Shown: piece by piece, positions 3,074 to 6,843 of the stretch
How positions within the stretch are numbered: the stretch's first letter is position 1
Layout: each line of letters opens with the position of its first letter
From: an uncultured Lachnospiraceae bacterium
Lineage (GTDB): Bacteria; Bacillota_A; Clostridia; Lachnospirales; Lachnospiraceae
NCBI GenBank assembly: GCA_946621895.1
Contig: CAMOOZ010000110.1
Coordinates: forward strand, 1-14,496
Reading direction: 5' to 3'
Length of the DNA stretch: 14,496 nt
Translations under genes and position numbers: made by a program
Notes under the pieces: model-generated
The model's database searches: none
Seen by the model: the letters and a program-made list of their open reading frames with translations, nothing else
Told to the model about the DNA's origin: nothing

Positions 3074-4522
3074 TTAAACGGAACCCTTTCCTGAAAGCAC
3101 CACGCCGAAGGTCTTGATCAAAAGCTTGATATCCAGACCCAGGCTCCAGTGATCGATGTAGTCCAGATCATAACGGACCACATCCTCAAAATCATCCACG
3201 ACCCCTCTGCCATAGACCTGCCACATCCCGGTAAGCCCCGGGGTCACGCTCATTCTGCGGCGGTAATAAAGATTATACCGTTCAAATTCATCCACGGTGG
3301 GGGGCCTTGTCCCCACCAGGCTCATGGAGCCTGTCAGCACATTATAGAACTGGGGCAGCTCGTCCAGGCTGGTCTTTCTTAAGAATTTTCCCACCCGCGT
3401 GATCCGGGGGTCGTCCTCCATCTTGAACATCAGCCCCTTCATTTCATTCTGCGCTTCCAGCGCCTTCTTTCTTTCCTCCGCGTCCATGAACATGGAACGG
3501 AATTTATAGATCCGGAAGCGCCTGCCGTTCTTTCCGATCCTCTCCTGTGAGAAAAAAACGGGCCCGGGAGAATCCAGCCTGATCGCCAGCGCGATAAAGG
3601 GCGTTAACAGCCCCGTAATGATAAGCCCTGCCAGGCCTCCAAAAATGTCCAGCAGCCTTTTTAAGAAAAGCTGCCTTGGATCCAGTGTCTTGATCGCATA
3701 GGAGATCACGGAAAAGCCCGCGAAATCCTGGATGAATCTTTCCGAAGCCGCCCCGTCCAGGATATCCACATTATAATGACACAAAAGCCCCATGCTCTCG
3801 AAGCTGATGATCATTTCCTTCACATCATCCTTTCGCGCGCCGGGCAGATCCAGAAGCACCTCATCCAGCGGCAGCTGGCGGGTGATCTCCAAAAGCTCCT
3901 GCACCCCCTCCTTTAAGGGCTCCTCCGCCGTTTCCCCCTCGGGGGTCTCCCGGATAAACACCCCGTTTTTCCCGTCGAGCAGGGCCGCTGCCGTAACATT
4001 CAGGCTCCACCCCTCTTTGCCGCGAAGCCTTGCAAGATCCTCCTGGAGCCTGCTCTTGTGGGTCACCAGCAAAAGCTTTGTCGTTTTTTCATCCCTGCGG
4101 GAGCGCCGCAGAATAAATGTACGAAGGGCCACATGGCCGAAAAAGGTCATGAACAGCTCAAGACATCCGAAAACGCCGAAGATCATCCGGGAAAAGCCCC
4201 GGATCTCATTCTGCAAAAAAAGCAGCAGCAGAAGCCCCAGCGTCAGAAAAAGCGTATACCGGAGAACCTCCGTAAACTCCGCATAAAGACCTCTGATGAA
4301 AAAATGCCTGTTTCCGTTGAAAAACAGCTTATATAAGATCAGTAAAAGGAAAAGATCCGCATAGCCCCTCGAGTGCACATCCCCGATCACTCCCTCCTCC
4401 GGCGGCAGCGTAGATCTGATCAGCACAGCCAGAAAAAAGGCCAGCATCGTGATGGCGATATCCAGGAGCAGAACGCGGTAGGTTCCGGCAGTTTCCTTTC
4501 TCCCCCCTCCGTCATGGTTCAT
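3074..4522 (-). CDS. Undecaprenyl-phosphate sugar phosphotransferase (WbaP/WcaJ type)
   Basis: This is the priming enzyme of the locus. It transfers a sugar-1-phosphate from a nucleotide sugar to undecaprenyl phosphate at the cytoplasmic face of the membrane. The 482 residues have the family architecture: four or five N-terminal membrane segments (about 17-135), a Rossmann-like middle domain (about 145-275), and the C-terminal bacterial sugar transferase domain. That domain shows KRLLDIFGG (288-296), FRIYKFRSM (336-344), the catalytic Asp-Glu in LDELPQFYNVL (387-397) and SLVGTRPPT (401-409), then PGLTGMWQVYGRG (428-440). The ATG at 4522 gives an 11-nt overlap with the polymerase gene. The usual acidic residue before MSLVG is Ser here. 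The sugar (Gal, Glc or a HexNAc) cannot be inferred. Confidence 0.92.
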   Translation of the reverse strand: MNHDGGGRKETAGTYRVLLLDIAITMLAFFLAVLIRSTLPPEEGVIGDVHSRGYADLFLLLILYKLFFNGNRHFFIRGLYAEFTEVLRYTLFLTLGLLLLLFLQNEIRGFSRMIFGVFGCLELFMTFFGHVALRTFILRRSRRDEKTTKLLLVTHKSRLQEDLARLRGKEGWSLNVTAAALLDGKNGVFIRETPEGETAEEPLKEGVQELLEITRQLPLDEVLLDLPGARKDDVKEMIISFESMGLLCHYNVDILDGAASERFIQDFAGFSVISYAIKTLDPRQLFLKRLLDIFGGLAGLIITGLLTPFIALAIRLDSPGPVFFSQERIGKNGRRFRIYKFRSMFMDAEERKKALEAQNEMKGLMFKMEDDPRITRVGKFLRKTSLDELPQFYNVLTGSMSLVGTRPPTVDEFERYNLYYRRRMSVTPGLTGMWQVYGRGVVDDFEDVVRYDLDYIDHWSLGLDIKLLIKTFGVVLSGKGSV

Positions 4523-5807
4523 TGTTTTTCCACGCCCTCAATGGTGCACTTAACATATCTTTTTCATACAGCAGCATGCCCATCAGGAGGATCAGGGGAT
4601 TCCTCCCGAGGATCGGAGAGACCAGATGAGCCTCAAACAGTGTATATACCGCCAGCGAAAGGATCATCAGCGCGGAAGCATATTCCTTCTCCCTCAGGCT
4701 AAAGTATAACCCATATAAGCCCAAAAGGCACGCACAAAGCGCCGGAACAAAGCCATACCAGTAAAACAGCCGGACAAAGCCCATGTCCAGCTCCGAAGTA
4801 TTTAACGGCGCGCCGAACAGGCCCCAGTCGGAAAGGTTTGCCGTCTGAAAGGCTGCCTGGATCCTGCCGTTTGTGTAGTAGTTTAAATCCCACCAGAAGG
4901 GATCCCTGATATCCTGCCTTGCCGCGCAGGCAACGGAAAAAAGGATAATGCTCAGAAAGACCCCGGCCCCGAGAAAGGCTGCCGCCCGTCCCGGACGCCC
5001 GTACTTCCCTGAATGCCGCGAAGCGGCAGCCTGAGGCATATCTGCGAATGCAGATATGCCGATAGGATCAGTGCAATTTGAGCCGCCTGCGGCACAAATG
5101 CGGGTATGGAAAATCGAATATCGATTCGATTTTCTATACTTTTCTTTCAGCTTAAGCACCGCCGCAAGCACCAGAGAAAATACCGCTCCCAAAAAGCCCA
5201 TTCTGGAATCCGTCAGCAGAAAAAGCCCCAGCTGCGCGAGAAAAAGCAGCAGCAGATGACAGAGCTTAAGCTTTTCAAAAAAAACAAACAGCGCCAGCAC
5301 CGTCAGCATAAGCGCCATGCAGTGCAGGGCATTGGGATGGCCCATCCCGAGACAGTACCGAACCTCATATCCGGCCGCATCTCCGCCGCGGTAAACGGTC
5401 CCCAAAGCTACTTTTCCGAAGATCCCCAGCACGGACAGCGAGGCGAGCACGGCACAGCCCAGGCAGTTCAGCAGGAAATAAACCTTCATTACCTTTTTCA
5501 TCTCCATGCCTTTGCAGGCGGCGATCCAGGCAATGATCCTGAGCATCTCGTTTCTGCCGCACATTTTCCAGGAAATGATCCCCAGAACGGTAAAAACAGC
5601 CAGGCAGATCCATTCCTTCGCCGGGCGCTTCACGGTCAGGACGCGAAAAAGGGTCAGACAGAAAACAACCCGGAAATACGCCCCGTCCCAAAAGGGCGTG
5701 AGCTCCGATTTATCCCAGAAGACATAGAACACCTCCAGCAGCAGCGCAAGATAAAACACTGCTTCAGAGAGGGCCTTCAGCTTTGGGTTATCGATAAATC
5801 GCGTCAT
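4512..5807 (-). CDS. Wzy-like polysaccharide polymerase with in-frame insertion
   Basis: This 431-residue polytopic membrane protein has about ten hydrophobic segments and typical Wzy landmarks: RYCLGMGHPNALH before the middle of the protein, LLTDSRMGFLG, and LDMGFVRLFYWYGFVPA near the end. It probably joins repeat units on the outer membrane leaflet. I place the start at the ATG at 5807 (protein begins MTRFIDNPKLK), giving a 20-nt overlap with the SGNH gene. A frame reading back to 5882 would extend deep into that gene and add an unlikely N-terminus. Residues about 224-268 form a hydrophilic block between two membrane segments. The block is encoded by a hairpin-rich DNA element (5002-5141) and looks inserted; removing it restores a short loop. 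The flanking loop is rich in Lys/Arg, so it is probably cytoplasmic. Confidence 0.82.
   Translation of the reverse strand: MTRFIDNPKLKALSEAVFYLALLLEVFYVFWDKSELTPFWDGAYFRVVFCLTLFRVLTVKRPAKEWICLAVFTVLGIISWKMCGRNEMLRIIAWIAACKGMEMKKVMKVYFLLNCLGCAVLASLSVLGIFGKVALGTVYRGGDAAGYEVRYCLGMGHPNALHCMALMLTVLALFVFFEKLKLCHLLLLFLAQLGLFLLTDSRMGFLGAVFSLVLAAVLKLKEKYRKSNRYSIFHTRICAAGGSNCTDPIGISAFADMPQAAASRHSGKYGRPGRAAAFLGAGVFLSIILFSVACAARQDIRDPFWWDLNYYTNGRIQAAFQTANLSDWGLFGAPLNTSELDMGFVRLFYWYGFVPALCACLLGLYGLYFSLREKEYASALMILSLAVYTLFEAHLVSPILGRNPLILLMGMLLYEKDMLSAPLRAWKNNEP
5002..5141 (-). repeat. In-frame palindromic insertion element
   Basis: Four consecutive inverted repeats lie inside the polymerase gene. (1) 5014-5028 has 6-bp arms TGCCGC/GCGGCA around GAA. 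(2) 5035-5060 has perfect 11-bp arms GGCATATCTGC/GCAGATATGCC around GAAT. (3) 5076-5099 has 11-bp arms with one mismatch around CT. (4) 5104-5139 has 16-bp arms with one mismatch around ATCG. The block is bounded by TACTT direct repeats at 5002-5006 and 5137-5141. The repeat-to-repeat distance is 135 nt, exactly 45 codons, so the frame is kept and no stop occurs. This arrangement recalls the Rickettsia palindromic elements that insert in genes. Whether it is repeated elsewhere in this genome cannot be seen from one window; no second copy occurs here. Confidence 0.65.
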
Positions 5808-6843
5808 AATCATAATGCAGATAATAGTCCCGGCAGCGGCGGATATGCTCCTGATAATTCCCGGCGGTAAGCTCCCCCTCACCCGCTTTGATCCATTGGA
5901 GGATCATGGAATTCACCTCGGCGCTGTAATGCTCCTTGTCCCGGTAAAGCTCCAGATCCTCCATGATCTCATGATGATCATAAAAGCAGTAGAGGGAAAC
6001 ATTTTCGTGGGAGAGCAGCTCCTTTGTCACCCTTTCCTCCGCGATAAAGATCTCCTCCAGGCGCCCCTCCCTGTACCAGTCGTCAAAGGCCACGATGCTG
6101 TACGGGGTATAGAAAAAAATGAAGTGAACCCCGGGATGCTCCGTTGTCAGCGGGATGAAAATGTTTTCTATCGTTCCCCGAAGCAGGCCCTCGTCCTCCT
6201 CTGTCAGCGCATGCTGCATGGGCTTTATCTCCTCCCTGCGGGCATAACCGCTTCTTAAGATCGCATCCAGCCCGGTGTCCGCCTCCCAGGCAGAATACTC
6301 ATCAAAGCTCGTGGTGGGCTCGCCCCTGAAGGTCCTCGTCAGATTAAACAGCAGCCCGCGGTAAAGGATATCCTTGTTCCAGAGATAAGAGGAATCATTG
6401 AAGGGATCATCGTCATAGAGATAATCCGGCTGATCCCCATATTGATCCCAGTCCCAGGCCCGGATCAGTCCCGCGAAATCAATGGGCATCAGCACGGTCT
6501 TACATTCAGGATTGCGGGCAAGGCATCTTTCCAGATTCGCCTTCAGCTCCTTAAAGCCCGCGCCCGCGAAAGGGAGCTTTACGGAATGCACGCCGAAAAG
6601 AGCGTCAAACTCCGTGGTCTTGAAATTCTGGGACATCGAGGTGCCCGTGATCATCGCATCATAATCAAAATGGCGCCCGATCCCGTCGTTGACATAGCGT
6701 TCCTCATACAGCCTGTAGGACAGGCCGGGAACAGGGCCGTGATAATGAAAGTACGGATCGAACAGGATCATCACCGCCGCCCACAGCATAAGCGGCACGA
6801 TCAGGACGAGCAATAAGGTTTTCAGATACTTCTCCGGCTTCAA
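5788..6843 (-). CDS. Membrane-anchored SGNH/AlgJ-like partner of MBOAT
   Basis: This 351-residue protein has one N-terminal membrane segment (about 9-28) and an extracytoplasmic domain. After the anchor comes MITGTSMSQNF (64-74), matching the GTS form of the SGNH/GDSL block I with Ser69 as candidate nucleophile. Near the end is RDKEHYSAEVNSMI, giving a DxxH pair (Asp302, His305). Proteins of this layout commonly sit beside MBOAT acyltransferases and finish acyl transfer to the polysaccharide outside the cell; here it lies 14 nt after the MBOAT gene. The start is TTG at 6843-6841, strongly supported by AGGAGAGG 8 nt upstream, which overlaps the MBOAT stop. The hydrolase-fold reading is moderate; the acyl group and target sugar are unknown. 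Confidence 0.72.
   Translation of the reverse strand: MKPEKYLKTLLLVLIVPLMLWAAVMILFDPYFHYHGPVPGLSYRLYEERYVNDGIGRHFDYDAMITGTSMSQNFKTTEFDALFGVHSVKLPFAGAGFKELKANLERCLARNPECKTVLMPIDFAGLIRAWDWDQYGDQPDYLYDDDPFNDSSYLWNKDILYRGLLFNLTRTFRGEPTTSFDEYSAWEADTGLDAILRSGYARREEIKPMQHALTEEDEGLLRGTIENIFIPLTTEHPGVHFIFFYTPYSIVAFDDWYREGRLEEIFIAEERVTKELLSHENVSLYCFYDHHEIMEDLELYRDKEHYSAEVNSMILQWIKAGEGELTAGNYQEHIRRCRDYYLHYDYDAIYR

Follow-up and report, generated by a model that had tools for sequence, protein, structure and literature searches.

A structured repeat of Lachnospiraceae that favours the spacer between the Shine-Dalgarno motif and the start codon, with a copy inside a polysaccharide polymerase gene

The window, that is, the entire stretch of 14 496 nucleotides of an uncultured Lachnospiraceae bacterium analyzed here, includes a gene for a wzy-like polysaccharide polymerase into which a block of 45 codons is inserted in frame. 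This block is probably a copy of a mobile and structured but non-autonomous repeat, some 135–150 nt long, that is present in part of the Lachnospiraceae and habitually occupies the spacer between the Shine-Dalgarno (SD) motif and the start codon, in the sense orientation and with an SD supplied by the element itself. This reading draws on a computed covarying structure with a pseudoknot, the number of copies and their unrelated flanks, sites that are filled in one and empty in the other of two sister species, the bias of position and orientation, and the lack of any function common to the downstream genes. Small structured repeats of bacteria usually lie between genes, a location that is explained by tolerance.

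The window looks like an exopolysaccharide cluster: it encodes a sugar transferase, an MBOAT protein and an ABC exporter, as well as a further protein whose match to Wzy_C stays below the cut-off. Within the 80 loci retained, almost all from Lachnospiraceae, the best counterpart of the sugar transferase is 52% identical. The ORF that carries the insertion (4512..5882, minus strand) was recognized as wzy-like from the ORF list, the homologues and their alignment; as listed, it encodes 456 amino acids, its true start probably sitting further in, and Pfam yields nothing for it at E≤1e-3. In the alignment of homologues (19 sequences out of the 120 listed polymerase homologues), the 45-codon block is a gap in all 19, and the orthologue from the genome G344, a protein of 403 amino acids, also lacks it, being 49% identical to the query over residues 2–229 and 62% over residues 280–418, with nothing in place of the block. 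The original prediction that the block is an in-frame insertion is thus borne out. By eye, the protein from which the block and one AAGTA are removed would read KEKYGRPGR, compared with SEKKGWRN. In an AlphaFold model of the protein built with 20 sequences, the block has a mean pLDDT of ~42–51 per ten residues (231–280), against 72.4 for the whole model, and its lowest-scoring part falls between two long helices of the membrane protein. A peptide search with the block among similarly sized proteins gave no match at E≤10 in 203 candidates.

The inserted element together with its flanking AAGTA repeat spans 5002..5141 on the minus strand, as read directly from the sequence, and amounts to a net insertion of 135 nt (45 codons). 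Equally directly read are the features from which the original prediction started, namely, TACTT at 5002–5006 and 5137–5141, with 135 nt from start to start, and four adjacent palindromes between these copies (5014–5028, 5035–5060, 5073–5101 and 5104–5139). The minus strand folds well as RNA, with −63 kcal/mol compared with the mean of −37.0 (sd 4.0) in 200 shuffles, none of which equals it (z −6.48). The four-hairpin build holds in the sense that there are four palindromic units, but in the minus strand these make up three local hairpins and a 3' segment D.

Read 5' to 3' on the minus strand, the element begins with hairpin A (5104..5139), a 15-bp stem with one mismatch, GTATAG...CCATAC. Then follow hairpin B (5073..5101; GCATTTG..CAAATTGC, with the apical GCCGC..GCGGC), a linker delineated by the alignment (ACTGATCCTATC, 5061..5072), of which the part CACTGATCC is kept in 8 of the 11 aligned G344 rows, hairpin C (5035..5060), a perfect 11-bp stem with the loop ATTC, segment D (TGCCGCTTCGCGGCA, 5014..5028), which can form a local hairpin or else a pseudoknot with the loop of hairpin B, and lastly the 3' tail TTCAGGG (5007..5013). 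The tail occupies the position where the relatives carry the SD, which in several G344 copies is GGAGGAAGTATG; in the window, no ATG follows it (AAGTACGG). The AAGTA flank recurs at both ends of several G344 copies, as AAGTATG, and may belong to the ends of the family and its target preference rather than represent a random target duplication. The covariance model R2, which was derived from 12 copies, that of the window included, matches 4999–5141(−) with 149.5 bits and detects this one copy in the window, a weaker hit on the opposite strand overlapping it.

BLAST over 397 Lachnospiraceae genomes yielded a match in G344 at E 9e-25 and weaker ones, at E≤0.05, in 57 other genomes, many of these weaker matches being short and probably due to chance. 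With all candidates scored, BLAST gives 28 matches in G344 at E≤1 and 19 at E≤1e-3; the corresponding numbers for R2 are 71 and 48. Relatives were found with R2 (E≤1e-3, at most eight candidates scored per genome) in 42 of the 397 genomes; calibration of the covariance models was short, so that the E-values are rough. The expectation of a dispersed palindromic family in a lineage of Clostridia is accordingly confirmed by the copies that BLAST and the model find in G344 and in these genomes: homologues of the polymerase lack the block, and its DNA recurs elsewhere. A broader covariance model, R3, has 18 matches at E≤1e-3 in G027, 16 in G350 and 33 in the single-contig genome G404, the latter comprising 15 of approximately full length, 16 of 70–119 nt and two that are mirror or overlapping matches. 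The matches of 70–119 nt (e.g. G404:C1 397546–397642) possibly form a shortened sub-family.

In a class-level sample of 391 genomes, three were matched by R2 and six by R3 at E≤1e-4. On reading, the R3 hits in G582 and G486 do not resemble members of the family, and the borderline R2 hit in G769 (9.6e-5) has no R3 match; the remaining four class-level carriers (G344, G075, G037 and G123) are also part of the family-level sample. Within the range of these searches, the element is restricted to the Lachnospiraceae. R2 recovered one copy (L076, 46.6 bits), in Candidatus Eisenbergiella stercoravium, from the 1.39 Mb of 80 named sugar-transferase loci. Nothing useful came from BLAST in phages and plasmids, or from a search for the exact patterns of the window hairpins in viral contigs (two loci, unrelated on reading) and genome contigs; such negatives, and that of the peptide search, are misleading, since the stems change while the layout stays. 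Among the 17 copies in G027, 12 have a mean identity of 94.0% (88.2–97.9%), and the mean for their 100-nt flanks is 59.2%, in our judgement the level of unrelated sequence under global alignment. Copy numbers in draft genomes are probably underestimates because contigs break inside copies of the element, as at the ends of C36 and C1 and the start of C47 in G350, and at the end of C41 in G027.

Good copies have a common layout that consists of the 5' hairpin A (TAGTGTGAAAAAT.. or AAGTATGAAAAA..), hairpins B and C, and the 3' segment D, which ends in a GGAATGGAG- or GGAGGAAG-like sequence. From AAGTA to AAGTA (or its counterpart), elements measure 135, 136 or 137 nt, and longer ones contain nested cassettes. 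In an alignment of 31 family copies made by sequence alone, in which 86.1% of the cells pair, 38 of the 47 pairs, pseudoknot included, show changes on both sides, with none of 500 shuffles as good, and the covariation score is 0.355, compared with 0.125 in shuffles and at most 0.101 in slid controls. An earlier set of 12 copies had two-sided changes in 18 of 44 pairs (0/500 shuffles). Such changes occur in 12 of the 15 pairs of hairpin A, 8 of the 9 pairs of hairpin C and 6 of the 8 pairs of the pseudoknot between the apical loop of hairpin B and segment D; the helix enclosing C is weaker, with 60% of the cells paired. When the loops and tails were cut by alignment columns and then paired freely, the pseudoknot pairs summed to 260 against 193 (sd 8) in shuffles, 0 of 2000 reaching this value. 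Because the relatedness of the sequences inflates the comparison with shuffles, and palindrome-correcting mutation could produce some of the compensations, the covariation would best be taken as support for a structure, short of proof that RNA is the active form.

Several copies in G344 differ from the common layout. A nested hairpin cassette, GGCAAACCGCTCTGCGGTTTGGTATGGG or a variant, lies between hairpins C and D in L147, L150, L152, L162 and L163, another cassette is located within hairpin B of L151, L152, L154 and L161, and at ~1540–1640 of L156 (G344:C287) a copy of the element runs into tandem GCGGTATGCGCCACTTGTG-like repeats. A conserved peptide encoded by the element was considered and rejected, frame 2 being open in 15 of 51 copies (the other frames in 3 and 1), which is too few for this to hold generally; so was a switch made of an SD-sequestering hairpin, CTCC..GGAG, which by eye is missing in several copies. 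The element matches no Rfam family above the gathering score, in the window or in 13 sources and 19 further loci searched at E≤1, and the matches above the cut-off in the scanned source loci fall outside it. A Clostridiales-1 RNA (RF01699, 100.4 bits) is found at L149:845–1028 (minus), ~460 nt from a G344 copy, and a TwoAYGGAY RNA (RF01731, 99.2 bits) at L168:2588–2752 (minus), ~0.9 kb from a copy.

The position of the element relative to genes was assessed at 109 distinct places (110 rows, with one place represented twice) in genomes other than G344, a non-random sample made up of the top-scoring R2 matches. Of the 109 copies, 87 have an SD-like motif in the 14 nt that precede their 5' end, compared with 16.3% of random placements. 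At the 3' end, 81 copies are followed by an ATG that is preceded by an SD-like motif and opens an ORF of at least 60 codons, or of 40 where the sequence ends before the ORF does, compared with 4.0% of 6919 random placements; some of the other 28 copies are truncated or have another copy after them. Both features coincide, that is, the copy lies between an SD-like motif and a same-strand SD-ATG-ORF, in 72 of the 109 cases, against 0.8% for random placement and none for the reversed element. A cruder test for a start codon (89/110 rows; 906/1773 random positions; 10/110 reversed elements) separates the copies from reversed elements but distinguishes them weakly from random positions, because codons inside ORFs count. 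In an uncontrolled count, 60 of 110 rows have an upstream ORF on the same strand that terminates between −60 and +15 relative to the 5' end.

The downstream genes are unrelated and have no common function: 81 proteins, out of 89 downstream ORFs, contain 108 Pfam families, none of which occurs in more than three of them. Junctions and downstream genes include ParA|ParB, a pair of FtsW-family and MGS-domain proteins, GatB and transaldolase, with core genes such as gatB and argS among them. Only one of 132 copy rows, that of the window, lies in a same-strand frame open for at least 80 codons on both sides. Thus, the spacer between SD and start codon is the usual site of the element, which lies there in the sense orientation, and in-gene copies are exceptional. 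Part of this bias could reflect survival of the copies rather than targeting, but survival appears inadequate as the sole explanation, since intergenic copies lying ahead of the SD ought to be tolerated as well.

Two sites differ in occupancy between the sister species G350 and G027. At the parA|parB junction, G350 has the element and G027 does not, the flanks being 98% and 95% identical; the empty site is GAAGAGGTGTACTGATATG, and the filled site GAAGAGGTGTAC-TAGTGTG...GGAATGGAGATT-GATATG. In these two sequences, the element sits between the SD and the ATG, shares at most one T with the site and supplies a new SD from its 3' end. The second site, again filled in G350 and empty in G027 (flanks 92% and 96%), has ATGGAGGTT to the left and right of the element; the bases that follow GGAGGTT are not the same, being AATTATG in the filled and CAGAATG in the empty site. 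Altogether, 9 of the 16 copies in G350 have a partner in the fetched parts of G027, of which two are empty and seven filled, and 7 of the 17 copies in G027 have one in the fetched parts of G350, all of them filled and none empty. We infer that the empty sites differ through insertion rather than loss, gain in G350 being the simpler reading of the two and loss in G027 the alternative.

The target duplication initially envisaged receives a mixed answer. Among the 62 copies in which an SD can be recognised at both ends, 22 have identical first 6–7 nt from the SD on the two sides, against 3.1 expected from shuffles across all genomes; the shared ends are explained in some cases by tandem copies (e.g. 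L165 and L241). Over 99 rows, the longest match between left and right ends averages 8.19 nt within the same copy and 6.86 nt between different copies of one genome (0/500). The cleanest empty site, parA|parB, with its single shared T at most, argues against regular target duplication, as far as can be judged from one pair.

These observations suggest a mechanism by which insertion could be tolerated. The element normally lies, in sense, in the short spacer that separates SD and start codon, often at operon-internal junctions, and its 3' end carries GGAATGGAG or GGAGGAA, which resemble an SD and are suitably spaced from the start codon; insertion would be tolerated because the downstream gene exchanges its own SD for that of the element. 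Movement would depend on an enzyme that acts in trans and favours a purine-rich SD-like tract. In the wzy-like gene, a look-alike of the target, GAAAGAAA|AGTACG, which resembles GGAGGA|AGTATG, would have been hit as a false ribosome-binding site (RBS), and the gene would have gained a 45-residue loop because the net insertion is 135 nt long and open in that frame. The target in the window, a single example, fits such sequence-directed insertion at a false RBS.

The enzyme acting in trans would acquire a name if the element were a MITE of an ordinary transposon, for instance of the IS200/IS605 type, with a DNA transposase whose target is SD-like. Hairpins near both ends, the fixed orientation and the lack of a clear target duplication at the cleanest empty site agree with this possibility, which we consider plausible although somewhat short of probable. 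As regards the terminal inverted repeats that a MITE would share with an autonomous transposon, there are hairpins near the ends but no autonomous partner is seen, Y1 being the one transposase family sought. However, among six carrier genomes, the Y1 transposase (PF01797) is matched only in G029, and not in G344, a fragmented MAG that carries the subfamily of the window copy, and by eye the left flanks show no fixed target of 4–5 nt beside the left end. It is also conceivable, if rather unlikely, that the family exemplifies a class of mobile elements acting at the RNA level, which insert in sense into translation-initiation regions, in the SD-start spacer, are pseudoknotted and renew the RBS from their 3' end; insertion would then occur on the mRNA or via pairing with the SD, and in-gene copies would mark cryptic SD-like sites.

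A cis-regulatory RNA leader, akin to a riboswitch or attenuator, that governs how the gene behind it is translated and has been copied into numerous operons as a useful device would explain the conserved structure with its pseudoknot, the sense orientation and location at the RBS, and the seven sites filled in both G350 and G027. We nevertheless regard such a leader as distinctly improbable, given that the downstream genes lack a shared function, the 108 Pfam families in 81 proteins having no more than three members each, that occupancy of two sites differs between sister species, and that the window copy lies inside a gene.

Specialization for in-frame insertion into genes, as in a family of the Rickettsia palindromic element (RPE) type, is suggested by the 45-codon insertion in the window and by the similar length and palindromic build; it is very improbable, and largely refuted by the position counts, in which a single row out of 132 is in frame within a long ORF; elements of 136 and 137 nt also speak against it. 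The resemblance to RPEs noted in the original prediction therefore holds for the dispersed, palindromic character and the in-frame location of this copy, but not for habitual, frame-keeping insertion into genes. That the palindromes arose by chance as a loop expanded in a rapidly evolving membrane protein, a reading compatible with the position in a loop and the low-confidence AlphaFold model, can be dismissed in view of the nearly full-length DNA homologues dispersed at other loci (E down to 9e-25) and the covariation.

The sharply defined site, fixed orientation and own SD of the mobile repeat of the SD-start spacer suggest how it can spread through operons of core genes (parA|parB, gatB, argS) without silencing them. 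The Lachnospiraceae are a major gut family, and because the repeat is found in 42 of the 397 sampled genomes, it might alter expression across many operons, interrupt the assembly of metagenomes and mislead the annotation of start codons. The copy in the window illustrates how this element can also lengthen a protein, here by a loop of 45 residues.

No description of this repeat family was found in the parts of the open-licence literature that were searched, and in the same material there was no report of a habitual location in the SD-start spacer, for RPE, ERIC/RU, BOX/RUP/SPRITE, bcr1 or otherwise. Hairpin A of one copy (L170) is similar to the 3' hairpin of Rfam TD-2 (RF03162), with 37.8 bits, below the gathering score of 48.7; there is a weaker match on the other strand, and one of 19 loci is involved, so that the resemblance is probably due to chance or convergence. 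By description, the closest matches are the small structured repeats of other bacteria. ERIC/RU-1, RU-2 and RU-3 of enterobacteria are structured repeats of 103–168 bp, mostly intergenic and occasionally fused to genes according to the available passages of PMC2759123, and share the small size and structure; those passages on ERIC/RU describe no SD-start habit, and the terms ‘start codon' and ‘Shine-Dalgarno' do not occur in that text. The pneumococcal BOX, RUP and SPRITE repeats, likened here by description, are structured, modular (BOX consists of A-B-C modules) and transcribed with operons in the passages available from PMC3049150, which mention no site in the SD-start spacer. The bcr1 repeat of Bacillus cereus, 167 nt in the available part of PMC2267715 and 147 nt in the literature on it, is, by description, a structured Firmicutes repeat of ~150 nt like the present one. 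RPEs, as far as the accessible text of PMC10969869 describes them, are dispersed palindromic repeats of ~150 bp that can lie in frame inside genes; compared by description, the family analyzed here is likewise a dispersed palindromic repeat of ~100–150 nt with an in-frame copy in the window, whereas it differs in the rarity of in-gene location (1/132 rows), the site in the SD-start spacer, the pseudoknot and the Lachnospiraceae hosts.
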